From Antedon mediterranea (lineage: Eukaryota > Echinodermata > Crinoidea > Comatulida > Antedonidae), in contig NC_092672.1 of assembly GCF_964355755.1 (NCBI RefSeq), positions 3,162,001 to 3,226,000 of the forward strand: DNA of 64,000 nucleotides, given 5' to 3'. Both the position numbers and the translations under genes were made by a program. Position 1 is the first letter of the stretch. Each line of letters starts with the position of its first letter. Shown here piece after piece: positions 21,481 through 50,400 of this stretch. Below the pieces are notes generated by a model that was not told the DNA's origin, did not search any database, and saw only the letters and a list, made by a program, of their open reading frames with translations.

Positions 21481-24400
21481 CTAAACAAGATCATTGTTTT
21501 TTGTTTCTTCCTTAGTTTGTTCTTTCGTATTCATACAACCCGTGGGACTTCCAATCTTATCCTGTAAAGAAAATACTGTACATCATCATAATTATACAGT
21601 ATATGCTAAATATAAAGTTTGCCAAAACACAATATGCCACAAATAGATGCTTGAATATGTATCAAACGTACAGCAACTGTATACATCCTATATAGACGAA
21701 CAATACTGAAGAATAACCAAAATCCCCCCCCCCCCACCCCCACCAGCCCCATATGATTACCTGAACGGGATTATTTCCTCGTCTTGTTAGTTGTAACGCC
21801 TTCGAGAGGAGTTGATGTATTTCAGCATTCACTGCTGTGTTACCAGTATCAATGTTAGATGTCACTAGAGCTTCCATTCTTTCTACGGCAGACAAGTTTC
21901 CTCCTTTTCGTTTGTTTTCAGTTCTACTTGCATTATGTGAAACACCTAAATATTAATTAAACAGACATTTTCATTAATACTGATTTTAATATGTTACTTG
22001 GCAATATTATACAGGACACGGAGTTTTCGCAATAGCATAAAATCAAAGGCAAACAATTGGAGAGACACGCCCTTTGGCGATAGATGTCTGCAACATCTCT
22101 TGTCTCTCCTCCTCCGTGCTCCATTTATGTATTTCACTGAAAGGATTAAATAAATTGGCAAAAGACGATGTGATTTACTGATGTGTACTGAATGTGTCAC
22201 TTTTGGGGAGACGGTGTTTAGGATAAAACCGAAGAAGGAGGTTATTTTCTAATAGGGAGCCTTTCAAACAGTGTTTGATTTATATAAATTACTGGTTATC
22301 AAGGCTGGTTTGATTGCATTGATGTAAAGCTTGGTTCTCACGCAACGTACTTAAGCGCACTCAAAGTAATTTGACCGAACTGTCGGTTGTGATGATTGGT
22401 CAAATCGTTGTCTATGTAATACGTTGTTGCGTTGCATCCAAATGACAACCAAGCTTTATGGTGTATTTTACTTACTGAAGCTTACTGCACTACTACCGGT
22501 TCCCGTCTTATGAACACGTTTTTTTGACGGATTCAGTTGTTTCTGAAGTTTATTCATTGATGCAATGGTATACAGATACGGATTGATGGCTGAATTGATT
22601 GGTAGGACGAACACTGCAGACCAAGCGTACACCTCTGCCGGAATATCAACTGTTCTTGTCAAAGACAACATCCCCATTATTATAATCGGCATCCAGCAAC
22701 AGAAATCCGTAGCAATGATAAAACCCATTCGCAAGGCCATAGCAATGTGTTGATTTTTGGCTGTATTTATATTGCCAGTCTGTTGGATGTTACTGCTTGA
22801 TATCTTCACCAGAATGAAGAGTCCTGCGTAACAGACAAATATTAATACAAAACAAAACATATTGAAACCTATGAAGATGGCAGCCGTGTACTCCCATCCT
22901 AACACTCTTTCTGACGTCAGTGGTAATGCCAAACACACGCTGGTAACACCGTAGAACTCATTGTTGAAGTAGGGCAGTGGTAGTATAGGAACAGCGCTCA
23001 TTACTATTGTCAAGAACCACCCCAGAGCTACCGCGTATTTGACCGAAGTCGATGTCAAATGAACGCTACGAAATGGAAACGCTATGTGAAGAAATCTGTC
23101 ACAGCTAAGAACAGTCAGCGTGAAAACAGACAATTCGCTTGACAGAAAAGCTAAGATTCCGGCAAAAGTACACGTAAGACTTTGCTTCCAATGCTTCGCA
23201 TGTGTGACGTAATCATCTCTGTAGAATACGTCAGCACTTGCTATGATTAGCATGTAGACACCCATGAGTGCGTCTGACACTGCTAGATTCATCACCAGTA
23301 AAGACTGTGTGTACGACGCACTATCACGTGATGGCCAGTTTCTACATCTCCATCCTATTACAAACATGTTACCAAATAGTGCGCTTATTCCAAAGGCCCA
23401 TAAGAAGATTCTGAGTATCTCGTTCTGCATCAGGTTGGCACAGGACGAAAAGACATCGGCGGCTGGTGTGCAGTCTACATCCATGCTAGGATTCAGTAAA
23501 CAGCAGAATGAGTGGTCATCGGATATTCTGAAATGTGAATCATAGTCACGTCACGTGTCAACTTTGTTTGGTCGTCTATCTAAAGCTCTGTCTACACCAT
23601 AAAACTAGTTTGACGAGAAGCTGTAATGTGCCCAAATATGGTAGTGATATGATGTCATCGTATCCATATATGGGATCACATGTTTTTGTCACATCAGGTT
23701 TGATAGTGTAGACAGTGTCTTAGTATTTCATGAATATCTGTCTAAGATTTGTTGGAAACAGAATAGGAAGATACAATAGGCCTAACTCTGTACATTATGC
23801 TTATACGCAGAATTGCAACCTTCCATTCAACTAATAGTAATACTCTCAAGAATATAGTCTCGATGTCTTCGATATCCAGTGTCTCGTATAACTCCAAATA
23901 ACATAGATACCAATTACACTTCAAATTATATTGGCTCACTTGAAGGAAAATGTACTTACAATGTTTTAAGTGACGTTAGGTCCATAAATATGTTTTTATC
24001 GACTTGTTCAATGTCGTTTGCAGATATATCTCTGTAATTCGTAAATAAACCATCGTGAAATGAAACATTGAAATATGGAAATGAAATAACAACGATTCAT
24101 GAGTTTCCTTTTGATAAAATAGGTGAAAATATTGATTTTTTAATTTTAATGTAATTGTTAATGTTAGAACGCACCGTTTTTATAAACGTGTGCCGCTGAT
24201 CCAAAAGCGTTGTTCGAATAAGTTTGAGTTGTGACATGGAAAGAATTGAGAACGTTTTTATAAACGTGTGCCGCTGATCCAAAAGCGTTGTTCGAATAAA
24301 GTTTGAGTTTGAGTTTGAGTTTGAGTTTGAGTTGTGACATGGAAAGAATTGAGACTTTATTACTTACAAGTATTCAAGTTCTGCTAATTCAGAAAACGCC

Positions 24401-27400
24401 ATTTCGTCTATATACTTTACTCCATTCCCATGTAGATCACTAATACAATAAAAACCACAAATAATTATTAATAAATTCTCCATTTGGTTTATAAATATTA
24501 TGTTTATTCATCTTATTATACTGATGAAATTATTTCAATAACAGTCGATCATTTTTTGTACACTTAGTTTCTTTACGAAACGACCCATATATTTTAATGA
24601 TTTGTTCTGTTTTTATCAGCCGATTTTCAATACTGTATACCGAAATCATAGGAATATTTGTGTATTTGTTTCGTATGTATCTAGTATAGTAACTTAACCC
24701 TTAACCTAACCTTCATGATACAGGCACCACATGTGATATAAATGAGATCCTGTATTACTAAATATTTCTATGATACTTCAGAAATAGATAGACTAATAAT
24801 ATGTGGAGATACAGCACTGGGAATCGGGTTTTTATATCAAAATCTATTTATACTTACAGATATTTTAGTTGCATTAAATCTTTGAAAACGTCGTCCGTTA
24901 TTGTCTTTATCTGATTGGTGTGAATATATCTGAATAATAATAATATTAATTTAACATAATCATACAGGTAATACGGACTTGCATAATGAGTCATAATATA
25001 TGAAAAAAAATACATTGTTGTTTACATACTTATTCTAGCCCATGGGTTTGTTTACGGTAACTGTTGTCGTAACTTACAATGTTTTAAGATGATACAACTT
25101 TGCAAACGGTTGATCCATTAATTCTTTCACATTGTTGCCAGATATATCCCTACAAAATAGGATACGATTGTTTGTATTAAATAATAGAAACCGAATTTAG
25201 TGCGTACAAATACCGTGTGGTGTAGTAGAAATGGTGCTGTTTGTGGAAGTGATCACAACGACAATTACTATCTAAGCATGCGTATAGATAATCTGCTGTT
25301 CGTCATTACGTCATAGCGAAAAACAGTAATCATTTTAATACTTACAAAACAACGATAAAAGTGAAATTATCCGGGTTCATGAAAATTGTTTCAGCTATTG
25401 AAGTGCCCTCTGAAGTATGCGATGACACGCTGCTCATGTTTCTAAAAACAATAATTGTTTTTAAATTAAATAATGATTTTATAATAAATAGGTCGGATTT
25501 AAAAAGTCAAATGCTTTGTAATAATCCTATATACGAGTATTATTTATCTACGTAATAAGCATCTGTTTTCAAGTATGATTTTCATCTGCGGGATTAAGCG
25601 TTAGTTTATGCGCATCCATAAACTAACGCTTCCATTATACAGTACAGTACGTTTTTTCGCGATGCTGAAAAATGTGCAACCAATCAGAGCTCAGAGCTTT
25701 TTATATTTAGTAAGGTAAATATCGATACACTATTCTTACAAGTATCTAATATCAGATGGTATAAGAGCAGCTTTGTCCGCGTCCCAGTCAATTCCAGAGC
25801 AATTAAAAGAAAGATCAGTGCAGGTACATCCTTCGGGGCATGTTACATCTATAGCAAAAGAAAACTCACATTTTAGATTGTTATATATTGACAATTTATT
25901 GCTGATTTCTGTCCATAGCATAGCGTCGTTTTCGATGCTAATGGCCTCACCTGCCGGCCGGTTTGGATAAAACACAAATAATATAGTGGAAATTGATAAT
26001 TGTTTTCAGTGTTTTACCAGTCTTAATCATACCGCCATTTTGTTTTCAGCTCATGTTCTTTGAATAAACAAGCATGGCCCGGGCTTACTAATAGTAAAAA
26101 ATCAACAGTTCTTTTCAGAACTAAATAATACGTGGTGTACGGCATATTTTATATCAACATTTGATTTCGCCATGCAAAGCTTCAAACAATACAAATTCAC
26201 TTACTACAAAATAGTTCATCGTCGCCGCGAATACAGTCTTTGATGTTATCACACACACGGTTTTGAGAAATACAATTTGACGCATCTTGGCATTTGAAAG
26301 ATCCGGGACAGTCATATTCGTCTGAAAAATGATAAAGATAGATATTTTAGGACGCAACGCAAGGCCGTAAGCCGCAACGCAAGCGAATTAACCAATCACG
26401 ACGCGATGATCATCGGATCTGTCGCTTGTGATTGGTCAACTTGCTTGCGCTGTGCCTACGTCACATCGCTGCGTCCAATTGGATCCACGCTTTACATTGG
26501 TTACGTAGTGGAATATTTTAATTCAATTAGGAATCTGACTTACCACAGTTAAGTTCGTCTTCTCCATTCTCACAGTCGATTGTCCCATCACATCGACTTT
26601 TGATTGTAATACAGTATGAGTTTGAACACTTATATGTATGCGAAGGACACTTAAATGCATCTGTAACAAAATCAAACCAATGGTGTTATTTGTTTGCCCA
26701 GATGACATTTTGGCTAGGCTATGTAATGTTACAGAGATATTGCCTTTTCTATAGGTGGTAGGCATACGTGTATTATAGAATTATACACCTCAGAGCAGGC
26801 AATAATGCACGTTTTTAAACAAAACGTAAAACACTGAAACGTTTCGGAATAGCGTGAGACTCCACTAAAGCTTGGTTCCCACTAGCGACGCAACGTAACG
26901 CAATATACGCAACGTACGAAAATTCCCTTCTAATAATTGTGTTTTCCTCCGTCTGCGATGTTTGCAGCACTGTTGCGTCGTCGGTTCTCACTTGTGATTA
27001 CGCAATACAGCACTTTGCGTCAATACGTCGTTACGCAACGACGTATTGACGCAAAGTGTTGTAGCAAACTTATAAATATGAAAGTATAACCTACCACAAT
27101 TACGTAATAATACGTAATAACCTACCACAATTACGTAATAATACGTAATAACCTACCACAATTACGTAATAATACGTAATAACCTACCGCAATTACGTAA
27201 TAATACGTAATAACCTACCACAATTACGTAAGAGGCTGCGATCTCGACATCCCAGGATATTTCCATACTCATCATAGTCTAACATACACACGTACTTGGG
27301 ATCAACGCAAATTTCGTTATCACATTTGATTTCATCTTCGTTGTCACATACAGCTCCAAGTGAATTGATATCTGCAGTTAAAATTACAACATATTTTCTA

Positions 27401-30400
27401 ATGCAGTATTTCTAAGGAACTTACGCTTTGTTCCCACTACTAAGTACTACGCAACTCAATGACGTAAACGCGACGCACGCAAGTTGACCAATGAGAGAGC
27501 GAATAATCCATCGTTTGTGATTGGTCAATTTACATGCGTTTTGCTTACGTCCTTGCGTTGCGTCCTAATGGGAATAATAAGCGTTCAGATTCATATCATA
27601 TCTACGACTATATTCACTATTTTTAAATTGAGGGTCTTAAAACATTGACTGTGTTGTACGCATGCGCAGGTGCTTGGTATGCTTCTTGCTTCGAAGTGGT
27701 TGTGCCGCGAAGACAAAAAGAGAACCATCCAATACGTATTATTACCAAATTATTTCCAGACAGATAAAACAATGAAATATGTGTTTTCCCTTCAATAACC
27801 ATAGGACATGCTTACTTAAATGAGCTGTTATTAAAGCTTGGTTCTCACCCTAGGATGCAACGCAAGAACGTAAGCCGCAACGCAAACCAATTGACCAGTT
27901 GGAATAAGCCTTTGATTGGTCAATTCGCTTGCGTTGCGGTTTAGTCTTTACGTTGCGTGCTAGAGGGAACCAAGCTTAAACATGAGCATACGTACGGCAA
28001 TTAACTTCGTCTAAACCTTTCGGACAGTCGGAAGTGCCATCGCATATGTATTTTGGATGTAAACATTTACCGTCACTGCATCGTAAAAAAGTATCGCTAC
28101 ATTGAACTTTAAAAGGGAAAAAATGAAATTAAGTATACAATATAGATCGTTTGCACATGACGTCACATATCCCATCAGCCTTTTCGAATCGCCGTCTTGG
28201 AACAATGTTAGTTTTCGTATGTGCGTGTTCAAAATATTACAATGTTGGACCGTGTGAACCGTGTGAACGGGGACTCCGGGTGGCGAAAATAATCTAAAAC
28301 AAATACAGGCAAAATAAAGGGGAAATTATTTGCGTATCTTACCACACTTTAACTCATCTGTTCCGTCAGCACAATCCGTAATTCCATTACATCTAGATGA
28401 TGGTTCCAAACAACGAGTATTGTCACACACAAAATCAGTATTAGCGCAGCTAGGAAATACTAAACAAAATATAGATAAACATATAGCGATGTACGATTAC
28501 AGCAACAACGTCTCCGTCAGGTAATTAAATTAAAATATAAACAATTAAAATTGTTTTCAGCTCATTTTTTATTTTTCATAATCTGTCCTTCTCAACTATA
28601 GTTTTATTGCAAAAAAAATGGCCGTGGCAATAACGCAAATGTCATGAAATGTGTAAATTAAGTTTGACAAAAATGGTGTCCAAATAATGGTGATATGCCC
28701 AGATATGGTAGAGATATGACATCAATATGTCCATATATGAGCACATAATATTTTTCGTTGTCACATTAAGTTTAATAGTGTAGACAGAGCTTTATATTAT
28801 TAAGTTTGTTGATTATCTTACTACAGTGAGTTTCGTCTGAATTATCTGGACAGTTGTTCCTATGATCGCAGTAGAATGAGTATGAGATACAATGGCCTGA
28901 TCCACATCTAAAACTCGTAGGCAGACAAACACGATCCTCTTCTGGTTCTAAAAGATTAAATGACATTTTAATTCATAATGTCTGCTTTCCATGTACAGTC
29001 AATTAGAATTAAAGTATCGAGTGATTTCTGAATCTATTTTGATTATTAAAAAAAAGCAGTATTTCGATGTCGATGTTGCTGTTGATGTTGTCTTGCTCTG
29101 GCATGATGTTAGTTAATTGTTGTTGCTTTTGTTGTTTATTATATACGTTATTGTAGGAGTGGAGAGAAGTGTAGGAGCTATAAGTAGGGAGTATTAGTAC
29201 ACAAGATCCGTCGGACGTTGGTTCTGATTGGTCAGAACTACATACATGACTTGCCATGACGTCATACCTTGGATTCATCGTGCTTGTAAGAAGGAGCTAT
29301 AAGACGCTGTTGATTGTTTAGTCAATCATATGCAACAGTTTTCACAATCGGTATGAGACTAAACATACCCAGAAGTTGGTTCTGATTGGTCAGAAGTACA
29401 CACGTCTTACATGATGTCATCCCTTCCGTGTCATTGCGGGTCTCATTTCCTATATACTTACCACAGCTCGGAACGGCACAATCGTTCATTTCGTAAAAGT
29501 TGCCAGAATAACACCAAGGTCGGCACCTTCCGTTAGGATTTCTACAAAAGTTGTGATCGCCAATGCCTTTATTGGTGTAGTCAACTGGATAAATAGCATC
29601 TCTGCCTTTGATAGTACTAGTCCACGAGAGACAATATCGGCCATTTTCCGTGGTGTCCTGAGTTCCACGGTAATCCGATCCATCAGACACTTTGAAACAT
29701 TCTGAAATCAGAGAAATATATTATTTATATTGCACAACTCACGTATTAAAAGAAATACAAGAAGTAAACGCAATCTAAACTCATTAACACACATGATTAT
29801 AGAGAAACGTTGCGAAAGTAGTAGTAGTAGTTGTAGTAGTGGTAGTGGTAGTGGTAGTGCCAATTGTTAGTGGTAATGTTAGTAGTAGTGGTAGTGGCAA
29901 GTGTTAGTGGTAATGGTAGTGGCAAGTGTTAGTGGTAATGGTAGTGGCAATTGTTATTGGTAGTGGCAAGTATTAGTGGTATTGGCAAGTGTTAGTGGTA
30001 ATGGTAGTGGTAGTGGCAATTGTTATTGGTAGTGGCAAGTATTAGTGGTATTGGCAAGTGTTAGTGGTAATGGTAGTGGTAGTGGCAGTGGCAAGTGTTC
30101 GTGGTAATGGTAGTGGTAGGGTATAGTGGTAGTGGTAGTGGTGATTATAGTAGTAGTGGTAGCAAGGCGTACAGTACCTTGAATGCAGTTTTCTCCGATC
30201 TCATCACTGTTATCCGGACAATCAAAGTTACCATCACATACCAATGACTTTAAAATACACGCACCAGACGTGCAGGTAAACTGGTTGATGGAACAGGTAT
30301 GATTCACTTCTATATGTGGTTCAACAAAACAAAATTGTTATGTTTCAGACTCAGAAATGTTTGCGTAAGCTTAAGAACGAAATTGTGTGTGTATATTATG

Positions 30401-33400
30401 ACTTGAGGCTTTGTAGACTTACTACAGTCTGGTTACATGTGACGTCTGAAAGTCGTGTAAGTTTGGGTACACACGGTCTAATTCGGGTTTATAACACGTA
30501 AACCCATTCATTATTAAGCTTGGTTCACAGCAAGGACGTAGACGCAACGCAAGCGAGTTGACCAATCACACGCGATTGTTCGAATAATCTGTTCCGTGTG
30601 ATTGGTCAAATCACGTTGCGTTACCTCCTTACGTTGCGTCATAGTGGGAACCAAGCTTTAGATCTGATAGTAAATTGCGTACCTTCGGTTTGAACGCTGT
30701 TGAGTGGTCCAAGCCATATAGGATTTACACGTGATTCTGAAATATTATACATAATATAAATACAATGTTAATCTTGTTTTTATCAACGTAGATTCGTTTC
30801 TTTGATTAAAAAAATGATTTAATTTTTAAAACTGTATTTACCAGAAAAGCAAGACACGGCCGCGTCCTCTGAGTGTTCGCAATCATTTTCCCGTTGACTG
30901 TCACACTGTAAAAGGTCTGTCTCATTGCCTGTGCATTGTACCTCATCTAGATGTATAGGGCCTTCGCCCGAACCGTATCTGTTGCTACTGTACGAACCGC
31001 TTGCACCGTCGAACCCAAGTTGACGGCAGACGACGAACGCGTCATCGATGTCCCAGTTATCGTCACACACTGTACCCCATTGACCGTCGATGTACAACTC
31101 TACACGTCCGGCCGATTCACTCCCGTCGGAAAGCCGAATAAATTCTGTTTAACAAAACACCATAGTAGTAGGCCTGGTCACATTACTGTTTATCATGAAC
31201 TATTATATTTATTATTATTGTTGAAAACAATTGGATATCGGTATATCATAAAACAAAATGACAACAATTCAATTGAATATAATAATTACGCTTTCGTCAC
31301 CAGTCATATTACGTTTTTTTACGTGTTTAATTTACCTGTATAGCAGAGCAAGCCAACATCATCTGCATGTCCACAGGGTGTGGTTGATGTAGAATGTGAC
31401 GTAGACGGACAGTCGAATAGATTAGTTTCATCGCCATTGCACAGAAAACTACGTGGAAGTATCGAACCAACGCCCTTGCCATACGCAACATACGTATATA
31501 CTGTGGTAGCTTCAGGGTAGCCTAGCATTCGGCATGCTACATGAGCGTCATTAATGTCCCAGTCTCTGTTACAAATGGTGCTCCATTCACCATCTGAATA
31601 AACTTCAACACGACCAGCGTTTTGTATTGGTGACCCCTGTAAACGTATTCCAACTGAGAAAAAAAAATACAATTTCAGTTTTCTAAAAAAGAACCAATTA
31701 CAGTATTCAATTCAAGCGTGGTTCCCACTAGCGACGCAACGTAAAGCAACATAGTGACGTATTGACGAAAAGTGCTGTATTGCGTAATCACAAGTGGGAA
31801 TCGACGACGCAGTAGTGCTGCAAACATCGCAGGTTTTATTTCACGCAGGCGGGGGCAAACGCAATCATTGGAAGGACATTTTCTTACGTTACCAAAGCGT
31901 GGTTCCCACTAGAACGCAACGCAACGTAACGCGGCAACGTATCAACGCAAGGTGCTGTATTGCGTAATCACAAGTGGGAACGCAACAGTGCTTCAAACAT
32001 CGCAGGTTTGATTTCACGCAGGCGGGGGCAAACACAATTATTGGAAGGGCATGTTCTTACGTTCCGTAGGTTGCGTTACGTTGCGTCACTTGTGGGAACC
32101 AAGCTTCAGATTGCGTTACGTTGCGTCGCTAGTGGGAACCAAGCATTACGCAACTTGGATTGATTGGTTGTTTTCGTGCACTTAGGTTAAGTTACGTTAT
32201 TACCAGGCCTAACTGTGTTCCTTATAACATATGAATACAATATTATGCAAATTACCATCGGAGCAGGTGACGTGTGCAGTAGTACTCGCACATGATACAG
32301 TATCATCTATTGGACATTGCAGCAGACTTGATTCACTTCCATTACACTGAATCACAACAGCGTCTGGTGACGGATTAGATAGAATATGAATCGACTGTAC
32401 TTGATTGACATCAAGAAAGTGGAGCTCTTTGCAAGTTATCTTTGTTGTTGCCAAATTCCAGTGATCATTACAAGCTGGTAACCATCGACCATCTCGAAAG
32501 ACTTCTATCATTCCTTGGTTACCTCCTCCCTGAATTCGTGTGACCTCTATGTGGATGATAGTTATATATAATTATAGATAGATATATTATACATATTTTT
32601 ACCAGAAAGAGAAAATCTATAGATATGTAGGCCTATTATTAATGTCCAGACATGGAAGCAACAACCACTTGAAGCAGAAGACTCAGTGAGAAAAATGATT
32701 AATACATTTATGTTTGGATCTCACTAGCAACGCAACGATAAATGCCCTTCCGATAATTGTGTTTGCCCCCGCCGGCATGAAATCAATCCTGTGATGTTTG
32801 CAACAATGTTGCATCGTCGGTTCTCACTTGCGCAATACAGCACTTTGCGTCAATACGTCGCTACGTTGCGTCGCTAGTGTGGACCACGCTTTAGAACCCC
32901 TAACAGACATCATCGAGACCCAGGAAAGAGTCAATGAGAGGTCCACTGAGTAGGAATTGGTCGGCGTAGTTTTTAAAATATATACTGCTCCTCGTTCATT
33001 TTACAGGAAATGTTCCTCCTCTTAATAGGGTGTCCAAAAAAGAGCGGTTAGTAATTGTCCTATTTTTTCTAATTATCCCTGTGCTATTTGTCTTAATACC
33101 AACTCAATCAGCATCGTACGAAGCGGTGCTGTCTGAGTTGAATCCCGAAAAGACGAGCAGTAGGGTTTAGGTCGTCGGGAGAAGATTAAACATGTATTAT
33201 CTTCTCACGACGAGAGGACTCGTCGTACGACGCTGTCTGGGTTGGCCTTTATATGAATGAATTATAATTTATCATCGTACCTTGTGAACATTCTACGTAG
33301 TCGTACTGTTCGTACGCTGTCGCCTGTGTTTGGTTGTTCGGGTCCTCTTCGGGTGGAGCACACCCGAACGGTCCACTCCCTTGAGTACAGTACGTGCAGC

Positions 33401-34566
33401 CTTGTCCGTATGATGTTCTTTCTTCACCCTTTCGTGATAAATATACGCCACTTGTTTGCTTTTGAAAACAAAACATATCAAGTGAGGCTTCCGTTTCGCA
33501 CAGATACGTCCATGTGTTGTTGATGTATGCTTGTGGAAACCCTGACAATCGGTTATATCCATGAGTCAATCTGTATCCCGCTATGATGGAGAAATCAAAT
33601 AATTTATAATGCTTAGTCAGATCTTATTTATATTTATTTTGGCCATATGTGGGAAAAATGTGTTTGTGGCAGAGACAGGAACTCAACCCATTGGATTAAT
33701 TCATCAGTCTACATTAAGTACCACCACCAACTAGCCTAAAGTGTCACAACTTTAAGGCCTCAATGTGTAATTGTTGAGGCCTGCTATAGTTACTTTCCAT
33801 TATCTTTCACGATTCCCTTATTACAAACTAAACGTAACTTAAATACAATTATGCCTAACTTTCTTGCTCTTCTGGGCATTAAACTTATTAATACATGTTC
33901 AGTAATAATATTTGTGGCCTATATCTTGATGGCTCAATGGATTGTGATGGCTCCGATCGATGTGGTGCGACTTACACTTTTCACCTCCCAGACCTATTTT
34001 GTTTTTCTCTACAACTATTTATAGGCCTAAATGTATCTATCTTTGTATAATCGAGCGTAGGCCTACATTTTTTGCAGGATATATAGGCATCCGCTAGACA
34101 ACTTCGTTGATTTGTTACGTAAAATACACACTGCTCAAATCTAGTCTCCGATCCAGAACAATTCACGTTGTAGATAGTCGATAAATTCCTGGCAATGCTG
34201 CTGACGTTACCAATACTCAAAATGTCTTCAAAGCCTAGCTGCTTGCATATCACCCTGCCAGCGTCCATGTTTAAGTCTCTGGCACACACTGTATGCCATT
34301 CTGAATCTGTGTACACTTCAAGTCGTCCATCAGATGCAAACTCACCATCGGTTAAGCTAACTCCATCTAGATATAAATCAAAACAAATCAAAACATAATG
34401 AACTGTTTTTGACAGAATATCTAACTTTCTAAAACCTACCGCTTTGGTTGACTATCTGAATTTAGTAGTTTAAACACCGCAAGTTATTTTACAAATCACA
34501 ATGCGATGTGTCATCCGAACTGTCGCTTGTGATTGGTCAAATCACTTGCGTTTTGCGCCTACGTCG

Positions 34567-34600
<34 letters not shown>

Positions 34601-37600
34601 GATTTTTATAGCGCACATACCACTCCAGAGTGCTCAAGGCGCATTTAAAAATATAAAAAAATAAATCATACAAATTCCTGACAAAATCCGTTGCGTCCAA
34701 ATAGGAACCAAGCTTTATCTTTAGCCAGAAACCAAAATATTACCAGAAAATCAAAGCTTATTCATAACACGGCAATCTAACAACATGCTGAGCTCCATTG
34801 GAGCAAAGGTTTTATGTGTGGCTGCGACACGATCAGTTCCAAACCCCTATACATAAACCGGAAAATAATGTACCTGTAACCGTAACTAGTATAATTTTTT
34901 CGCAGCCAATCCTAAGATCAAAGGACTGTTGCAAGTTCCTACTTTGTCAAGAAAAGCTCAGCATCTTGTTTTTTGTACTGGCCTTGTTCAAGCAGTAGCA
35001 ATTTTAAACTGTGTATGCCTATGTAGCTTACCTGTTGAACACTTCACTCCAGATTTGTAACTATCGGCGTCTAGTAACCATTTGAACAAACAGTCACTCA
35101 GGTCTGTCTCATCACCCGTACACTCCACAGCATACGTTAATGTCTCGTCTTCAGACGTAGTTCCGCTAGTACAGCATTCTGTGTAATTTGCAGATGGGTA
35201 TCCTAAGGTACGGCAGATGACGTCAGCTTCGTTTATATCAATCGCTGACATCATAGACCATTCGCCACGGTGAAAAAATTCCACCTTACCTTCGTGTAAC
35301 TCTTCTCCAATTAGTCGAATTCTCACTACAAAATGCCAGGACAGTGCATTAAATATTTATTGAAATATATTTTCGTTTGTTCGTGAAGGGATTAAGTTTA
35401 ATAGCCACCTAACTTAGATGTGCTTGTAATAGTTAGGAACCACACCCATGAGTCTTATATTTTTGTTAACTCTTAACCATCCCCGCTCCCCTCCCAACCT
35501 CTCCTCCCAACCGATTACTACTTACGTGGTAAACACACGACACCAACATCATTGTCATGACCACAAGATGTATCGGATGTTACATTACCAGGATCGCAGG
35601 GAAAACCATATCCAAGGAGACAGCTACTATAGTTTGTCCACACGTCACCTGTTCCCTCTCCGAAATCATAAACTAAATGTTTCTCTGCTCCTTCATACCC
35701 CAGTTTCCTACAAATGATATTAGCGTCTTCCTCGGTCCATCCTTCGGCACAGATGGTACCAGCATATTCACCCACACTTTGTATTCGGCCTTCTCTGGCT
35801 ACGGTACCATTGACCAGAGATACTGTGATAAAGGAAGATACATATGAACCGCTGTAGTTATGTTCTATAAGCGTGGTTCCCACTAGCGACGCAACACAAG
35901 GATGTAACGCAACGTGACCAATCATAAGCAATGGATTATTTGAACAGTCGCTTGTCATTGGTCAACTCACTTGCGTTGCGGCTACGTCCTTGCGTAGCGT
36001 CTCTACTGGGAACCAAGCGTATGGCTAGGTAAGGCTGTTTTACTGAAGAATTGTGAAATATGATTAATTGGGACGTTTATATATAAATGTCGTTATGAAG
36101 ACGCAATATTTTCATTCAAAAGTAAACAACTGGTCAATAGGCCTATATTTGTTTTACTTTTGAATTCAGTTTTGTTGTTTGTTCGTTTCTACTCATTACG
36201 TCATTCTCTCGATCTCACTCATCATTGTTATATTAAAATATTTCTTCACTTCTCTGTTACTTAAGCTTGGTTTCCACTAGCGACGCAACGTAACTCAAGG
36301 CAGCAACGTTTGACGCAACGTGATGTGTTGCGTGATCACAAGTGGGAACCAACGACGAAACAGTGCTGCAAACATCGCAGGTTTGATTCCACGCAGGTGG
36401 GAGTAAACACAATTATTGGAAGGACAATTTCTAACGTTGCGTAGGTTACGTTACGTTGCGTCGCTAGTGGGAACCAAGCTTTAATTTGTATTTAGTTTGT
36501 TCTGAGGCTCGACAATATACCGCAAGTTTCGTGTCTATATAATGACATGCAATCCATCATCTTAAGGTGGGGCTTTGATCAATTTAATTAGCAATATTAT
36601 CTTGTTAACTTGGAATGGATTCAGATTTTTGAGGAGAGATTATCGTACTAAAGATCAAAGACGCACCGCAGCGATATACGTTTCTTCGACAACATCTAAT
36701 ACCGATATCACCTAAATCCTTATTTCCATTAATGAATTTATAAATACAGAATTCTGTTGGTTTCGCATTTAAAAATCACAAAAAAATAGATGACAATAGA
36801 TCCGCGTAAATCCAACCGAAGGACGCAGTGACCACATTAATGTAATTGTTTGTGAACTAATCTATTATAAGAGAGAGAGAGACTTTTTTTGGCTATTGGG
36901 CCTACACGCATCAATCCTATGTATGACACCAACTGTACGGAAAAGTGTTGAACACTTTGGAAAATCGTCCCGAGTGTCTTTGCTAGTAAAATTACCAAGA
37001 CTTGCCCCAAGTCTGATCTTTTCGATGTTTAGTATACTTATGAAACGCCGTATGTGCCAAAATATTTATCTTTTTACTAATATTAAGTCAACTCTATTAC
37101 CCTTTATTATGAAAGAATAACATGTCATACAACAAATATTTGTATCGATTTATCAATTCAACAATTATTATATTACTCTGGTTATTGTATTACCGTCTGA
37201 TTTTACAGTAACTGGAACACACACAGAGTCAGTTTATATAATTAGTATTTTATTGCTTGACCCCTTTTTAGTAGGCTTTTTTAGTAATATAATATTCTTC
37301 TTTAATTAGTCTCATTGTAACAGACTGTACAGTAGGATATCGTATCTGATATATGCTGCTCATAATTTTGTCTTTCTTGCATTATTGTTTTATTAAAGAC
37401 CACCAGAATGAAAATCGTTTAATGTCGATATATTCTGGTTCACAGTGAAAATTGTTATTGACTGGCAGGAATGTATCATATCTCATGTGAAATTATGAGT
37501 TTACCGCTTCTTGAAACTTTCCGCCTAAAACAATTTATTGCGTCATCATTAGATAGATAGAGAAAATAAATGTTCCTTTTTTTCCAAACGAGAAAATTGC

Positions 37601-39157
37601 ATTTTGTAATCGTAGTACATGAATTGTGTATGTTTGAATTTGAAAAAAAAATGAATTGTTTCGAGTTCCGTAATTGAAATTCAAATGACAATAATTGTAA
37701 TCATTACATTCAATTTACACCGGTACAATACAATGAGAAAGCAAGACAAGTTAGATATAATTACATTAGTATCTGTCATCATTTAACGACATACGGTAAT
37801 TGATTGACAAACAAATAGAAGTTCTTCTACCTATAAACCATCATTGACAGCAGTGTTTTTGTTCATCAATATAATATTTGTTTTATCACCGGTTGTCTAT
37901 ATTGTAATTTGATTATTATACAAAATATTATGCAAATGTTAATTGCAATATATTATTTAATATTTTTACCCGACACCATTACAAGTCATTGATTCATACC
38001 GGTATTAAAAGTAATATTGTTTTACAATTTTGAATTTATTTATATGATCTCTTTGTGAAGAGTTATTATGAGAGCATAATTCTTGAATGATTAATATTTT
38101 TCTTTGTCTTAATAATAATAATAATAATAATATCCTGGATTTATAAAGCGCCCAATGTTGTGAAACCTCTAAGCACTGTATACAAAATGAGAAAAAAGCT
38201 AAAGCTCTGTCTACACTATCAAACTTTATGTGACAAAAATATATGATGAGCCCATATATGGCCATGATGTCACATCACTATCACTACCCTATTTGGGCAC
38301 ATCACACTTTTTTGTCAAACTAGCTAGTCTAAATTGAACCCTGGTCAGCACCAGTTGTGCCTCGGTCATCCCTCTTATAGAATACAAGCACACTCGTTTG
38401 AGTTTTGTTTTTAATATATAAATGCTCACCTGCAAGATTTGCAGTAATTCCTATTGAAAAGTAACAAGTACACTGCGGACAACTTAGCGAAATGGTGACA
38501 TCCACAAGAAATGACACCTGAAAGCAAATACGAGAATATTGCATTCATAGAATACATACACAGACTAATAATCATAATAATATTAATACCTATATATTTT
38601 CAAAAAATCGAATGATAGTGGAAAAGAAACACCAACTGTTCTGTTGTGTAAATTAAAACCTTTGAAACATCACTTTGAAGCATTAGCCTATATTAATGAA
38701 TGATAATAATATAATAGTTCGTTCAAAAGGTTGTCAATGCTCAGTCCATAAATAGTTTTAAAAACAATTGAAGAAATCTGGGTCTTCAAAACAATACAAA
38801 TACTCATTTTGTGTTTTTATAGTTTATTTTGTATTTACTGTTTGTATTGTTTGAGGGTCCCTATTTTAATGATCAGCTTATGCTGGATGGACCACCCTCA
38901 TAAAATATTGTTGAAATAAATAAAATAAATAAAATTAAAATAGTTTCACAATTTTGCCATCTAGGTACGCATTAGTCACACAGTGCACAACTCTCTACTT
39001 AATTTTCCTGTTCTCTGTGTTTTCAGGGCGAAAACGGCTTCAACCGAAAATTCCTGTAATCATGTGACTAACACATTATGAATAAGTAATACAACATTGA
39101 AATGTTACAAAACGTTACCTGTAAAAAGGATAAAAGCAATCTCTTCAGCATCAGCAT
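21481..39157 (-). CDS. Composite LGR-type GPCR: SRCR x7, LDLa, kringle, LDLa x6, LRR, 7TM
   Basis: Predicted plasma-membrane receptor of 1735 aa. Exons on the minus strand, 5' to 3': 39157-39119, 38517-38430, 35822-35526, 35325-35032, 34366-34067, 33580-33281, 32546-32256, 31653-31336, 31144-30842, 30736-30683, 30309-30178, 29701-29462, 28947-28822, 28459-28343, 28106-27996, 27371-27219, 26660-26544, 26321-26205, 25848-25740, 25441-25346, 25149-25078, 24929-24858, 24439-24368, 24031-23960, 23527-22476, 21945-21761, 21561-21481. The 5208 nt close on TAG. Domains: signal peptide (1-~25), SRCR-type modules (~43-743), linker (744-761), LDLa (762-805), kringle (806-885), six LDLa (886-1132), LRRNT (1133-1169), LRRs (to 1296), hinge and 7TM (1297-~1640), tail. 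The 7TM resembles GRL101/RXFP-like LGRs; the SRCR and kringle additions are not part of the LGR architectures I know. Ligand unknown. The join between exons 1 and 2 is the least certain. Confidence 0.85.
22327..22457. mobile_element. Foldback MITE family B, copy (diverged)
   Basis: aagcttggttctcacgcaac at one end and the inverted acaaccaagctt at the other. Lies in the receptor intron directly after the 7TM exon. Confidence 0.75.
22476..23527 (-). CDS. Receptor exon 25: hinge plus complete seven-transmembrane domain
   Basis: One 1052-nt exon encodes the whole 7TM bundle (residues ~1297-1647). It opens with the hinge Cys cluster HSFCCLL and CTP...FSSCANLM, typical of LGR receptors. TM1 contains [11 protein letters not shown]2 [15 protein letters not shown]3 ends SCDRFLHI (DRF in place of DRY), TM6 contains [10 protein letters not shown] (the CWxP toggle), and TM7 is [15 protein letters not shown] (NPxxY). 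The conserved disulfide pair is present: TC at the top of TM3 and VC in ECL2. A single-exon 7TM after 72-nt LRR exons is the usual gene form of LGRs. The exon ends in a strong donor (gtaagt). If that donor is not used, the frame stops two codons later. Confidence 0.9.
23584..23722. mobile_element. MITE family A, copy 4
   Basis: Left TIR AGCTCTGTCTACACCAT, right end gatagtgtagacagtgtct. Sits 57 bases upstream of the 7TM exon on the transcribed strand. Confidence 0.8.
23960..25848 (-). CDS. Receptor exons 19-24: LRRNT cap and leucine-rich repeats
   Basis: Exon 19 (25848-25740) encodes an LRR N-terminal cap with CPEGCTC...FNCSG. Exons 21-24 are each exactly 72 nt in phase 2-2, and each gives one 24-residue LRR ([44 protein letters not shown]). 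Exon 20 (25441-25346) is 96 nt and does not follow the LRR consensus well in its first half. The block is short, five exons, fewer repeats than in vertebrate RXFP1. In related receptors this block binds the hormone core; here that is only inferred. Confidence 0.85.
24165..24352. repeat. ~76-bp tandem duplication with TTTGAG expansion
   Basis: Two copies of tttttataaacgtgtgccgc...gacatggaaagaattgag. The second carries an expanded (gtttga)n tract. Receptor intron 23. Confidence 0.88.
26205..28947 (-). CDS. Receptor exons 13-18: six LDLa modules
   Basis: Six consecutive phase 1-1 exons each encode one LDL-receptor class A module of about 37-51 residues. The calcium-cage residues are visible in most: DNCPDNSDE-like ends in exon 13 ([12 protein letters not shown]), exon 14 ([11 protein letters not shown]), exon 15 ([11 protein letters not shown]), exon 17 ([11 protein letters not shown]) and exon 18 ([11 protein letters not shown]). 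Exon 16 (27371-27219) is degenerate. It has Cys residues but no SDE-like end, and its last bases lie in a 31-bp tandem repeat. With the module before the kringle the total is seven. In relaxin-family receptors the LDLa drives signalling; mollusc GRL101 carries many. Confidence 0.88.
26350..26495. mobile_element. Foldback MITE family B, copy
   Basis: Inverted arms of the gacgcaacgcaagg type around an accaatcacg/tgattggtca centre. Between receptor LDLa exons 17 and 18. Confidence 0.75.
26868..27066. mobile_element. Foldback MITE family B, long subtype, right end truncated
   Basis: Left arm aagcttggttcccactagcg, and an internal tgcgatgtttgcagcactg typical of the long subtype. The right arm breaks off in aagtgttgtagcaaac. 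Confidence 0.7.
27090..27230. repeat. 31-bp minisatellite that includes a splice donor, five copies
   Basis: cctaccNcaattacgtaa recurs at 27090, 27121, 27152, 27183 and 27214. On the minus strand each unit reads exon end (AATTGTG) plus donor (GTAGGT) of receptor exon 16. Confidence 0.93.
27424..27585. mobile_element. Foldback MITE family B, copy
   Basis: gctttgttcccactac and gcgtcctaatgggaat form the ends; the centre is ttgaccaatgaga / gattggtcaatt. Between LDLa exons 15 and 16. Confidence 0.75.
27834..27977. mobile_element. Foldback MITE family B, copy
   Basis: aagcttggttctcaccctag at the left, gctagagggaaccaagctt at the right. Ends 19 bases from LDLa exon 15. Confidence 0.85.
28655..28790. 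mobile_element. MITE family A, copy 5, left end decayed
   Basis: Right TIR is intact (aatagtgtagacagagct); the left end is recognisable only from aagtttgacaaaaat. Lies 32 bases from LDLa exon 13. Confidence 0.75.
29462..29701 (-). CDS. Receptor exon 12: kringle domain
   Basis: This 240-nt phase 1-1 exon encodes an 80-residue kringle (residues 806-885). Consensus landmarks are [34 protein letters not shown] and a C-terminal CAVPSC. Seven cysteines are visible; a normal kringle has six. The extra one is in [10 protein letters not shown], where most kringles have no Cys. Kringles occur in plasminogen-like proteases, ROR kinases and neurotrypsin; I know of none in an LGR. The flanking exons are in the same frame and phase, which supports one transcript. 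Confidence 0.85.
29811..30165. repeat. GGTAGT/GGCAAGTGTTAGT minisatellite
   Basis: Imperfect mixture of ggtagtgg and ggcaagtgttagtggtaatg units. Begins 13 bases past receptor exon 11, so it lies at the intron's 5' end. Confidence 0.9.
30178..30736 (-). CDS. Receptor exons 10-11: linker and first LDLa module
   Basis: Exon 10 (30736-30683) is a 54-nt phase 1-1 linker without cysteines (residues 744-761). Exon 11 (30309-30178) encodes a textbook LDLa with [22 protein letters not shown] and a closing ENC. It sits between the SRCR block and the kringle. The intron on its 3' side starts almost directly in a GGTAGT-type minisatellite (29811-30165). Confidence 0.85.
30516..30658. mobile_element. Foldback MITE family B, copy
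   Basis: aagcttggttcacagcaagg and catagtgggaaccaagctt ends, with ttgaccaatcac / gtgattggtcaaa centre. Between receptor exons 10 and 11. Confidence 0.88.
30842..35822 (-). CDS. Receptor exons 3-9: seven SRCR-type modules
   Basis: Seven exons of about 290-320 nt, all phase 1-1, each encode one scavenger-receptor cysteine-rich module. The last (31144-30842) is canonical: [38 protein letters not shown] and six Cys. Exons 35822-35526, 34366-34067, 32546-32256 and 31653-31336 also fit well. Exon 35325-35032 lacks the usual first Cys (it reads [11 protein letters not shown]) but keeps VICRTLGY and [12 protein letters not shown]. Exon 33580-33281 is strongly diverged, recognisable only by length, phase and Cys pattern. 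One exon per module is the group B style, while six Cys is the group A count. SRCR arrays in invertebrates are often linked to recognition or defence; the role here is inference. Confidence 0.85.
31713..32143. mobile_element. Nested foldback MITEs, family B long subtype
   Basis: An outer copy (31713-31892 and 32108-32143) is interrupted by an inner complete copy (31894-32107). Both start gcgtggttcccactag and end gtgggaaccaagc. Between SRCR exons 7 and 8. Confidence 0.75.
32710..32893. mobile_element. Foldback MITE family B, long subtype
   Basis: Contains tgtgatgtttgcaacaatg and cagcactttgcgtcaatacg. Ends in gctagtgtggaccacgctt. Confidence 0.75.
34483..34718. mobile_element. Foldback MITE family B interrupted by a SINE-like 3' tail
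   Basis: The family B arms (cttgtgattggtcaaatcac and gttgcgtccaaataggaacc) are split by (aat)n and the sequence atttttatagcgcacatacc, a SINE/LINE-type tail. Confidence 0.6.
35870..36018. mobile_element. Foldback MITE family B, copy
   Basis: aagcgtggttcccactagcg and tactgggaaccaagcg ends. Lies 48 bases upstream of the first SRCR exon. Confidence 0.85.
36263..36481. mobile_element. Foldback MITE family B, long subtype
   Basis: Complete copy with aagcttggtttccactagcg and gctagtgggaaccaagctt ends. Intron 2 of the receptor, which is otherwise repeat-poor AT-rich sequence without visible exons. Confidence 0.88.
38108..38400 (-). mobile_element. SINE-like element split by MITE family A
   Basis: (aat)n, then tcctggatttataaagcgcc and aacctctaagcactgta, then the MITE, then gaaccctggtcagcaccag. 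The same blocks occur inverted at 50600-50820. Confidence 0.55.
38202..38328. mobile_element. MITE family A, copy 6, right end truncated
   Basis: Left TIR AGCTCTGTCTACACTATCAA is perfect. The right side stops at ttgtcaaactagctag, inside the SINE-like element. Confidence 0.8.
38430..39157 (-). CDS. Receptor exons 1-2: start codon and signal peptide
   Basis: Exon 1 (39157-39119) starts with ATG and gives [13 protein letters not shown]. An in-frame TGA lies 13 codons upstream with no other ATG between, so this start is the natural one. Exon 2 (38517-38430) continues [16 protein letters not shown] and ends in phase 1, matching the first SRCR exon. Together they read as a hydrophobic signal peptide followed by a short Cys-containing segment. 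The join is supported by strong splice sites and frame, not by homology. Confidence 0.6.
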
Positions 39158-40560: not shown

Positions 40561-43500
40561 CTACAAAATGCGACATTCAGTGTGCGGTCGATTTCGCATC
40601 ACTTTATCGCCTTGGCGCGTACAACATTGTATTATGTTCAACATTGTTTTGTGTGTTTGTGGATCAACTTCATGATCACGGACTGTATAGTTACGAACTG
40701 TGAAGATGAACTGGATTCCCAGATCTTCCAGATCACTGACAATCTCTTCCACTCGATGCTCCTTTGCTTCGTCTATGTGAGTAACGACTGCTATTGGAAG
40801 TTCACCTGAAAATATAGTAGTATAGAGTTAGCCTAGTCTCAAGCTCTGTTTACACTATCAAACTTTATGTCGCAAAAAAATGTGATTTGTCCATCTATGG
40901 ACATGATGATGTCTTATCACTACCAGATGTGTGCATATCACCATAATTGGGTACATCACACCAACTAGTTTGATAGTGTAGACAGGGCCTTAGTTTGCAA
41001 ACTCTGAGTTCGCCCAGAAAGGTTTAGCCAGCGGTAGATCAGTAGACAGTCTAACAAGATAACTAATGTCATGCTATCCTGGAGATACAGTGTATAAACT
41101 GTCCTCACAAACTTCTCCAAACAGTGAAAAACTCTGAACTTGTAAACGAAGTAAAAATTTCCAAGTCTAGAAAAATAGTTGAGGCTACTGTGAAGAAGGA
41201 CAAAATTTCACTTTGATTAAGTTCCTGAATAAGTTCAAGTCAATCGTTCGTGTAACTTTGGTGACATGCATACTCACTCGTAGCCATTTTTATTCGTTTT
41301 GCAAACTCCCCCATCTCTTTCACACGGAGTGTACGATCAGAAGCTCTGGGAGAAAAGAAAATGGTTAGAACCATTAGTATTAATAGTTCATGCCCCAAGG
41401 GACGACATTATTAGGTATATATCCTGGTATTGTACTTACCTGACAACAAGCAGAGCAATATGAATCTGGCAATCTTTAGTGTCTCCTCCTCGTAACGCCA
41501 TCTCTTTTGCGTCAACTAGCTTATCAACGACGTTCCTATTCCAGTTCACATTGTCAGAATTTTCACGTAAACCACCTAAAATGGACAAATGTAAATAATC
41601 AATACAGGAATAATGATGATGATGATAATGATGATAATGATGATAATGATGCTGATGATGATAATGATGATGATTTATACCATAAATGCGCAAAACCATT
41701 TCAATTTAAAGACTAAATGAAGTTGACTTGAACATGTAGGTATAGATGTTTAACATAATACCATCTTAATGGGTTTTTAATTGTTTAAAAAGTTACTTCG
41801 TACATAATTGTGTAGCTACGACAGCTACAGTAGCTTCGTCGAAATCCGGCATACCACGGTTGTCGAACACCGCAATCTGATCTGTCAAGAACACTTTGAG
41901 AAAGCCTCTGGTCTTACTGTCATCTGTCGTGTTACACACACCAGTTCGTTCGCCTGTAATATCCTCGTATGCTTTCTTCTGATCGTAGCCTAAGACATAT
42001 TTAAGTGAATTGATGAGACAGGATTTGCCGGATCCAACTGAGCCGAAGACGGCGATGTATAGTTCTTTAGGAAGGTCTTCAGCGAGTGGTCTGTCAGTGG
42101 GTTCTAGAGTCGTACTTGGCTTGTATCTTTTAAGCGTCTTCAAAGTTTGCCTAGCCTCTTTATCAAGATCAATGATGTTCAGTTGACGTAAAAACTGATA
42201 GCCAGGGGCATACATTATGACGTAATCAGTGCCAGGAATTTTTAAACCTTCTTCCAAATTATACTAAAAAGTAATAAATGAAAATATGTTTAGTTTATAC
42301 AAGTGGTGACGGACGGAATTTAAATTTTGCATTAATAATACAACGCTCAAATGAAAGAATAGTAACTACATTAACATTACCTTTAAAATGTCATTTCTCA
42401 GTGACAAAGTACAGTAGTGTCATTTCATAAGAATTTCCTAGACCTAAAATTCAATATACGTTCACGCTCAGACTGTAGTACTTTGTAAACATCCAGATTG
42501 TACGCTAGCGGCACACAAACTAATATTGATCTCTGCCAATTTATTTTTCTAATCTATTTATATTTGATCTGTTAACAATGATGTCATATCGATTAGTATT
42601 GATTAGTTTATTGTATAAATGATAGTTTGATGGTTTAATCGGATCATAGGATCAAAGAAAATATCGCCGTGGGAACAGACATTATGACGATAATTTAACC
42701 TACAAAATAATTGTCATTAATAGTACATCTATTGTATAATTATACATACTAATAGTAGTATAAATATATCGAAAAAAAAGTATCGCAAGTTTTCACACGG
42801 CACTCTTTCAATTATATTATGCACACGGCACTTTTGCTTGAAAGTTTTAGCAGAATGTGAAAGTTCAAGAGTCGCGTATAATGTAACTAAGAATAATATG
42901 GTATTAAGACTAAGTAAATTTACTGAAAGCCAACAATGATGACGATGGTAAATAGAGCTCTAAAGCAAGATTGGTAAATCGAAAGAAGATTGATATTTAG
43001 ATTAATTTTTAAAGCTCCGTCTTCACTACCAAATAAAAAAATGTGATGTGCCCAAATATGGCAGTGAAATGACATCATCATGTCCATATTATCGGCACAT
43101 CACATTTTTTTGTCACATAAAGTTTGATAGTGTAGACAGATAAGCATTGTATGTAGATTATAATTATTATTAATGATAATAAGGTTGACGATTTGATTGT
43201 TGATGGATTCAAGAGTGAGTTCAATAATTTTAAAACAATTAATGTTGACAAAAAGTAGGAGGAGGCCTAGAGGTTGATTTTACTGGCAATGATGACGGTA
43301 ATGAAAATGATACTGAAAACGACAATAAGTGACAATAAGTATGATGATGATGATGACACTGTTGATGAAGAAAAGAATGATGATGCTAATTAAAGATGAT
43401 GACGACAATGGTGAAGATGATACTAATGAAAACGGATGACAATAAGTATAAAGACGATCGACCGTTTTGATGAAAAGTATGATGATGGTGTTAATTAGTA

Positions 43501-47400: not shown

Positions 47401-50400
47401 ATAAATATTTCTTCCATGCTTTGAACACGGCGAATACAATACAATGATATAACAATTATTTACTTTAATTGTTTACATTTAGTAAATATGCCTGGAAGTT
47501 ACATGCAAGGAGGTAATTACATGCAACAGTTACCCCAAGCAAATAGACCAGGGATGCAACAGATGGGAATGTACCAAACTCAGACAATACAATCTCAGCA
47601 TCTAGGTATTCAACAACAACAGCAGTATATGGCTACTCAAATGCAGAGCTTCCAAGGAATGGTAGCCCCCGGCCAACAGTCCCAAAGTATGATGGCATCT
47701 CAGATGATGTCTAATCAACCATCACAAGGCATGATGCCAAACCAGATTCCAGTGACCGCTAACCAACAACCGCAAGGCATGATGCCGACTCAGAATCCAG
47801 TGTCTGCTGGTCAACAGTCTCAAGGTATGATGTCATCTCAGATGATGTCTAACCAACCATCACAAGGCATGATGCCAAACCAGATTCCAGTATCAGCTAA
47901 CCAACAACCGCAAGGAATGATACAAGGCATGATTTTTTTTAAACAATTTTTATCTTTTTAATTCTTACTTTTGCTTGAAAATAAATACAACTTAAAATGC
48001 GTTTTTATCTTTAATTAATTTTTATACATGTTAACGTTAATGCATTTTCTTTCTTTTATAATCTATCGAATTAACTTTTTTTATAAATACAAATATGATG
48101 CGTTTTTGTCTTTAATTACATTGTTATACATGTCATCATTAATACATATCCTTTCTTTTATAATCTTATACACTAATTATACTTATATATTTTTTTTTAT
48201 ACATACATTATCAATTAACAAAAATTGTTTTCTCTTTTTACCAATTTTATCTTTTTAATTCTTGCTTTGCTTGAAAATAAATACAAATTAAAATGCATTT
48301 TTATCTTATATCTTATATTATAGTTAAGGGGATAATATTTTTCTTTGAAATAATGCAGCAAAATAAAAGGTATATAGTTTAAAGTACAAAACATATCGGT
48401 CATGACCAACAGATAGTATAAAATCATTCATTTTTTTCTCAAATACAGGCATGATGCCAAACCAGATTTCAGCGACTAGCAAACAACCGCAAGGTATGAT
48501 AAACCAGGCCGGTATGAATGTATTACAACCACAGAATACACTACAACCAGCACCTGATAATTCTGCTGTGAGTAATGACTTCGGAGACTTTCACCAAGGA
48601 CCAACCATGGCTTCTCAACCTGCCAACAATAAAGTAACTTCATTCTCAACAGAGATAACAACACATGTAACCACAAGCCAGCCACATGTAGTACAAAGTA
48701 GTGACAGTGATTTTGGTAGCTTCCATCAGGTACCGGTGAAATCAACAGATGAGGTTGCTGTTCAAAAGGAGAGTCCTGAAGAACCAGCACCAGTTTTGGA
48801 AGAAAGTTTTGGCGAATTTGAGAAAGGACCTCAGGTGCAAACAGTTACACAAGAAGATGTAGCAAATACAAAAGAACCAGGAGGTGAGGCATTGATATAT
48901 ATGTGGTGTTACGATAACAAAAACGGATACGTCACACATTTGTGAAACTTTTGAGTTCATAAAGCGTATTCGTGTTGACGAATATCACCAGTCATATTCG
49001 TAATTACAAAACTAGTATAGTTTTAATCGATTTTGCATTTGAATCAGGAATGATTCATGATTAAAATATAATTATACTTTTATTGAAAGTAATTTACTAA
49101 AGTAATTTACTAAAATGCCAGGTCAATTTTGATAAATAGCAGTTTTTAAAGTCCTCACTCGCTTTGATGTTACGCTAGGCCTAGGCAGCCAAGCAACACG
49201 TACCTGCACTTCGCTCAAATTTACAGCAGTCATATTTTGGATGGCGCCCTCAATATTTCATTGCCATGCAAAACAAATTTTTACTGGCTTACGAAAAACG
49301 AATACGTTTTCGTTATCGTATTCGTAAGATTGCGAAAACTCCCTATTAACATAATACAGCCCAACTGTGAATTTAAATATTGAAAGCATAGCTTAACTGT
49401 AGAGGATATTATTAAAACAGTTGTAGGCATCTGCATTAATAGTAATGATATCCAGGATCGGGAGTTGAAATCCAACGCTAGTCACATTACTTGTAAGTTT
49501 GCCTCTCTCCACCCAGGTGTACAAATAGGTACCTGGTCAAAGGTCAAAACATAATGCGCTAAGGCTGCATTATGGGTGTATGTATCTATTCATGTTTGAT
49601 CAAAAAATAACCCTGGGTAATAATGTGAAGCACTTAGAGGCTTTACGCATAAAGTGCTATATAAGAATGAAATAGCATATTATTATCATCAAGATATTTG
49701 TTATTTTTCTCTGTAGCTTTATCTTTAGAGGAGATGATGTCAAAATCAACAAACTTAAGCGCAGCAGCACCAAAGACCTCTCGCAAAATGTTCAACCAAA
49801 AGAAATCATTGAATGAGGTCAAAACATCAACATCGAAAACACAGAAAGTGTTTAATGATAGTACAAAGGCAAGAGTGTGGTCTGGATCAGACAGTCTTGC
49901 AGGGATGTTTGCTGGGAAGAGCAAAGGAACTATAGAAGGAAGTATAGCAACTGCAGAGGAGAACATTCAACAACAAGAAGTTTCTAGTAATGTTGATAAA
50001 GAATTTCCAAACTGGTAAGAAACTGTTCAGTCCCTAATGACTGATAATAATAATGACCTGATAATTTAAGCTTTGTTTATTATGACCTGGTTGTTTTCAG
50101 TTGATTTGTCTTGACCTGTTTCCCACTTGTCTTTGTCCCTTCATTCTGTATCCCAGGCAGACCTGACTCAAGATTCTGCATCTTTCTGGGATCCTGCCTG
50201 CTTCCTTCCCCCCCCCCCCCCCCCCCAGGCTCATTTTTATTTGTATATGTTTATTTTTATTTCATTATTGTTTCAATCTTTAAAGGAAGAAAAATAAATG
50301 TTGTTTTTTAATTTGAATATTTGGGCATTTTATAAAGGGGTTGTCAATATTGGTAGTACTGTTTAGTGCTTGTAACGATATAGGCAAGGATAGCAATCAC

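Follow-up and report, generated by a model that had tools for sequence, protein, structure and literature searches.

LGRs of the rhodopsin class are known as receptors for hormones and growth factors. Among them, RXFP1 and RXFP2 combine LDLa, LRRs and a hinge with a rhodopsin-class 7TM domain; RXFPs have one LDLa module, and to our knowledge none carries an SRCR module or a kringle. The presence of one or more LDLa modules N-terminal to the LRRs is the feature of type-C LGRs (PMC11863921). GRL101, which is represented in Lymnaea, by LGR5 in arthropods and by ambulacrarian GRL101, joins multiple LDLa modules and few LRRs to an LGR-type 7TM domain (PMC8286064, PMC6267866); ambulacrarians are reported to have one GRL101 ortholog each (PMC8286064), and neither SRCR nor kringle is described for GRL101. 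Modules of these kinds are known on GPCRs of a different class: Adhesion GPCRs of amphioxus carry kringle, SRCR, LDLa and CUB (PMC2246102), and Adhesion GPCRs of sponges carry SRCR repeats, with no kringle and no LRR+LDLa core described in the part of the sponge account available to us (PMC4302439). Neurotrypsin-like proteases, finally, unite SRCR and kringle in one protein.

We analyzed a window of 64,000 nucleotides (C3:3162001-3226000) of a 354 Mb assembly with 18 contigs. A receptor gene on its minus strand (39157..21481) was rebuilt from the sequence and comprises 27 exons, 5208 nt and 1735 aa. The frame has no internal stop and a single stop at its end, and 26 of 26 introns are of the GT-AG type, so that rebuilding returned exactly the model that the sequence-only reading had put forward. 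The intron phase is 1 from the end of exon 2 to the start of exon 19 and 2 across the LRR block. The signal-peptide exons 1 and 2 are the least secure portion of the model. Together with exon 27 they lacked a homologue in the paralogue array described below when it was searched exon by exon, and exon 20 was not recovered there by homology search. A 31-bp tandem repeat of 4.7 copies (window 27086-27231) overlaps the exon 16 splice donor, and the donor sequence is therefore present several times.

Table 1. Exons of the receptor gene in window coordinates. A to F are genes of the paralogue array; id, identity.
Feature	Position	Strand	Evidence
Exon 1: start codon, beginning of putative signal peptide	39119..39157	-	GT donor; no paralogue homologue recovered
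Exon 2: remainder of putative signal peptide, N-terminus	38430..38517	-	no paralogue homologue recovered
Exon 3: SRCR 1	35526..35822	-	Pfam SRCR 4.5e-14; 48-55% id, six array genes
Exon 4: SRCR 2	35032..35325	-	Pfam SRCR 1.4e-14; array homologues
Exon 5: SRCR 3	34067..34366	-	Pfam SRCR 2.2e-18; array homologues
Exon 6: degenerate SRCR-like module, not Pfam SRCR	33281..33580	-	exon conserved in array
Exon 7: SRCR 5	32256..32546	-	Pfam SRCR 4.6e-14; array homologues
Exon 8: SRCR 6	31336..31653	-	Pfam SRCR; array homologues
Exon 9: SRCR 7, D-D...E residues	30842..31144	-	Pfam SRCR; 69-75% id in array genes
Exon 10: 18-aa linker, SRCR part to LDLa part	30683..30736	-	50-59% id in C-F
Exon 11: LDLa 1	30178..30309	-	Pfam; 74-83% id in array
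Exon 12: kringle	29462..29701	-	Pfam Kringle 9e-17; 60-66% id, six array genes; PDB plasminogen/HGF kringles
Exon 13: LDLa 2	28822..28947	-	Pfam; array homologues
Exon 14: LDLa 3	28343..28459	-	Pfam; array homologues
Exon 15: LDLa 4	27996..28106	-	Pfam; array homologues
Exon 16: LDLa-like 5, not Pfam LDLa	27219..27371	-	49-52% id in array genes
Exon 17: LDLa 6	26544..26660	-	Pfam; array homologues
Exon 18: LDLa 7	26205..26321	-	79-87% id in array
Exon 19: LRR N-terminal cap	25740..25848	-	LRRNT 0.0012, below cut-off; 56-61% id in array
Exon 20: irregular first LRR	25346..25441	-	frame and splice sites only
Exon 21: LRR	25078..25149	-	LRR_8; array homologues
Exon 22: LRR	24858..24929	-	LRR_8; array homologues in C-F only
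Exon 23: LRR	24368..24439	-	LRR_8; array homologues
Exon 24: LRR	23960..24031	-	LRR_8; array homologues
Exon 25: hinge and seven-transmembrane domain	22476..23527	-	7tm_1 6.4e-23; 65-73% id to array genes
Exon 26: cytoplasmic tail	21761..21945	-	29-31% id in array, weak, E about 2e-3 to 5e-3
Exon 27: end of tail, stop codon	21481..21561	-	frame and splice sites only

Other features were seen in the window. The motif AAGCTTGGTTCCCACT has 19 matches in both orientations between positions 22327 and 57633 (0.06 expected), and its sites are short inverted-repeat (MITE-like) elements within many introns. A P-loop GTPase-like exon with weak similarity to IIGP/dynamin lies upstream of the receptor gene (41796-42263, minus strand). 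Long gamma-synergin-like exons with many DFGDF/DFADF-type motifs occupy 47425-55885 on the plus strand, and the two that were tested gave no Pfam match. A 27-bp minisatellite of 39 copies is located at 2985-4045, where the minus strand is open over more than 340 codons.

The sequence-only reading had described seven SRCR modules, a kringle, seven LDLa modules, LRRs and a 7TM domain in this order. Pfam matched the receptor protein to SRCR (2.2e-100, six stretches), Ldl_recept_a (4.6e-42, six stretches), Kringle (8e-15, one match), LRR_8 (1.6e-18) and 7tm_1, the latter over the full Pfam model, confirming the presence of kringle, LRRs and 7TM domain. The order was found in frame as well, but the kringle is placed between the first and the second LDLa module, so that the protein reads SR1-SR7, linker, LDLa1, kringle, LDLa2-7, LRR, 7TM. 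As for the two counts of seven, six SRCR modules match Pfam SRCR and possess six cysteines each, in keeping with the SRCR superfamily, and six LDLa modules match Pfam; the fourth SRCR (exon 6) and the fifth LDLa (exon 16) have no Pfam match. In a profile comparison, exon 6 matched the other SRCRs over 43 residues with a probability of 71%, and its counterpart in paralogue A scored Pfam SRCR at E=0.014, which is below the cut-off. To assess exon 6, seven window modules were submitted to AlphaFold, which returned a pLDDT of 64 with insignificant Foldseek matches (best E 0.63, the top ones mostly SRCRs), a run that is not independent because SRCR rows were present in its alignment. Exon 6 was rejected as a clear SRCR; by the profile comparison and paralogue A it is probably a degenerate one. 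SR7 is the most conserved SRCR module and retains the D-D...E residues, which make up the cation-binding site of known SRCRs. Aligned with PDB kringles, exon 12 does not show the acidic pair that typifies lysine-binding kringles, which makes plasmin-type lysine binding unlikely. The 7TM domain retains the motifs DRF, CWMP and NPYLY.

Comparison with the PDB identified human RXFP1 (7tmw, E=2.5e-73) as the best match of the LRR and 7TM parts together; LGR4 and the glycoprotein-hormone receptors ranked lower. The 7TM domain alone matched RXFP1 at 2e-49, TSHR at 3e-28 and SSTR2, the best non-LGR, at 3e-11. The receptor thus has a rhodopsin-class 7TM domain nearest to LGRs and an LRR ectodomain immediately before it, and LDLa modules ahead of the LRRs agree with the definition of type C. 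Judged by its sequence, it is a type-C LGR of the rhodopsin class. Adhesion GPCR identity was ruled out, as neither 7tm_2 nor GPS/GAIN was found in the receptor protein (Pfam, E<=1). Pfam found no trypsin domain either; unlike neurotrypsin-like proteases the receptor has no protease domain, and the linker and LDLa1 separate its kringle from the SRCRs. It shares LDLa, LRRs, hinge and 7TM class with RXFP1 and RXFP2, which have more LRRs, and, compared by architecture alone, multiple LDLa modules, few LRRs and the 7TM type with GRL101. In contrast to the one GRL101 reported per ambulacrarian, this genome has some 70 7TM matches with an identity of at least about 34%. No LGR with SRCR or kringle was found in a search of the accessible literature. 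The statement that no described receptor has this order therefore stands for LGRs within that literature, but GPCRs with SRCR or kringle are already known from the Adhesion class (PMC2246102, PMC4302439). The idea of a scavenger-type ectodomain merged with a hormone-type GPCR is upheld by a type-C LGR core that is joined to SRCR/kringle in one frame.

The receptor does not stand alone: seven genes of the same order, itself included, are present in the genome. The closest relatives of its 7TM exon (67-74% identity) form a cluster on the same chromosome (C3:6.98-7.17 Mb), 3.8 Mb from the window, where kringle matches adjoin six 7TM relatives. Read exon by exon, these are six complete genes (A-F, C3:6.96-7.17 Mb) that keep the order SR1-SR7, LDLa1, kringle, LDLa2-7, LRRNT, LRRs, 7TM, and homologues of exons 3-19 and 21-25 follow one another as in the window gene. 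Splice phases were compared for A, C, E and F and match the window gene in all four, and the borders of the linker exon are phase 1 in C, E and F. Exceptions are LDLa6 and LDLa7, which C, E and F encode in a single exon, and SR4, which is degraded in F; in D a frame change splits the 7TM exon. When 29 7TM sequences, none of them from GRL101, were placed on a tree, window and array genes formed one clade (100/100). Across these genes modules most strongly resemble their counterparts at the same position, indicating that the string from SRCR to 7TM is older than the duplications. A partial copy ('C2', C3:7050547-7055388) lies some 2 kb downstream from one of the complete genes and extends from LDLa3 to 7TM only; it may represent a relic or else an alternative 3' cassette. 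All six array genes have an extra coding exon between linker/SR7 and LDLa1 (e.g. C3:7166385-7166726), which occurs in six copies genome-wide, none of them in the window gene, and resembles a diverged C-type-lectin-like module (weak Pfam match, 0.053). The window-gene intron at this position contains a short inverted-repeat element.

dN was lower than dS in nearly all exon classes, linker and SRCR included, with the exception of the LRR class in the A-B pair (omega 1.77, few changes). Between window gene and array, dS is saturated in several classes and the proteins are still 49-74% identical. Among C, E and F, omega was 0.46-0.66 for SRCR, a figure derived from few substitutions, versus 0.06-0.16 for 7TM. 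One pair gave an omega of 0.58 for LDLa. Faster evolution of SRCR than of 7TM exons fits recognition of a variable ligand but does not prove it. A type-C LGR core (LDLa-LRR-7TM) would have gained the N-terminal SRCR string and the kringle, most simply through phase-1 exon shuffling, and this gain would have preceded the formation of at least seven copies by duplication.

What might such a receptor sense? The sequence-only reading suggested large ligands or microbes with signalling through G proteins, which we likewise treat as conjecture. We speculate, at somewhat less than even odds, that the distal SRCR string binds a variable, multivalent ligand. Candidates would be a microbial surface, mucus or a host opsonin, captured by SRCRs that include SR7 with its putative cation site. 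The LDLa/LRR/hinge part would then pass binding on to the 7TM domain as in RXFP1, and the 7TM domain would signal through a G protein, by analogy with starfish RXFP/LGR3 through Gs/cAMP. It appears doubtful that the same gene encodes a peptide-hormone receptor with an insulin/relaxin-like agonist on LRR/LDLa and with SRCR/kringle merely as an anchor to matrix or a co-receptor: the type-C LGR core is nearest to RXFP1, the echinoderm RXFP/LGR3 receptor is activated by relaxin-type peptides and signals via cAMP (PMC11863921), and GRL101 has been proposed as an IGF receptor (PMC8286064), but the window receptor has just 4-5 LRRs, and tandem expansion with faster SRCR evolution would be unusual in a hormone receptor. 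Adhesion GPCRs with SRCR/kringle in amphioxus (PMC2246102) and with SRCR in sponge (PMC4302439), as well as the duplicated array, are compatible with a role of the same gene in cell-cell or self-recognition (gamete or tissue adhesion) in which the SRCR string would be a homotypic or heterotypic adhesion domain; we regard this role as unlikely.

That the locus is one gene, a predicted type-C LGR with an SRCR/kringle ectodomain, has in our estimate a probability of about 0.92. The same module order in six paralogues speaks for a true gene family and not for a chance pairing of neighbours, and the window-gene introns flanking the linker exon (105 and 373 nt) leave little space for a 3' UTR, a promoter and a signal-peptide exon. 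Hydrophobic ATG-started frames in the gaps were considered as an independent signal peptide ahead of LDLa1 and rejected; the strongest (E, F) runs into a stop and is located in another frame of the conserved lectin-like coding exon. Based on paralogue order, conserved linker, short introns and dN<dS, we treat the locus as one gene, as had been claimed. Two adjacent, always co-duplicated genes (one for an SRCR protein, the other for an LDLa-kringle-LRR-7TM receptor) that the sequence-only reading merged are highly improbable, for although the partial array copy holds just the LDLa3-to-7TM part, the junction introns are short, the linker, a non-domain exon, is conserved in four paralogues (C-F), and a further coding exon lies inside the SRCR-LDLa gap of six array genes.

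The genome contains at least 150 SRCR exons, an abundance from which it is probably that of an echinoderm or a related animal; mitochondrial COX1 gave no match in the assembly. A distant 7TM relative (7TM at C1:20224587) was observed downstream of mosaic exons on the same strand (C1:20199958-20226000), namely kringle, CUB, C-type lectin, two SRCR, CUB, lectin-like, about seven LDLa and LRR, and these exons and the 7TM are possibly another mosaic LGR. At C7:4.05-4.48 Mb, four units of alternating SRCR clusters and 7TM relatives lie on a single strand, and two of these units have near-equal spacing; no LDLa or LRR was found in the 9.6 kb upstream of one C7 7TM. A kringle within a run of SRCR exons, a neurotrypsin-like arrangement, is located at C9:877312-885097 (minus strand). 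It is conceivable, though we consider it less likely than not, that an LGR lineage became mosaic G-protein-coupled pattern-recognition receptors here, comprising the SRCR-linker-LDLa-kringle clade, extended in the array by the lectin-like exon, as well as one or more distant relatives such as that at C1:20224587. Pattern recognition and G-protein signalling would be directly linked in a duplicated LGR clade that is under constraint and bears a CD163/DMBT1-like scavenger ectodomain. The seven genes represent a concrete set for testing the assembly of GPCR ectodomains through phase-1 exon shuffling.
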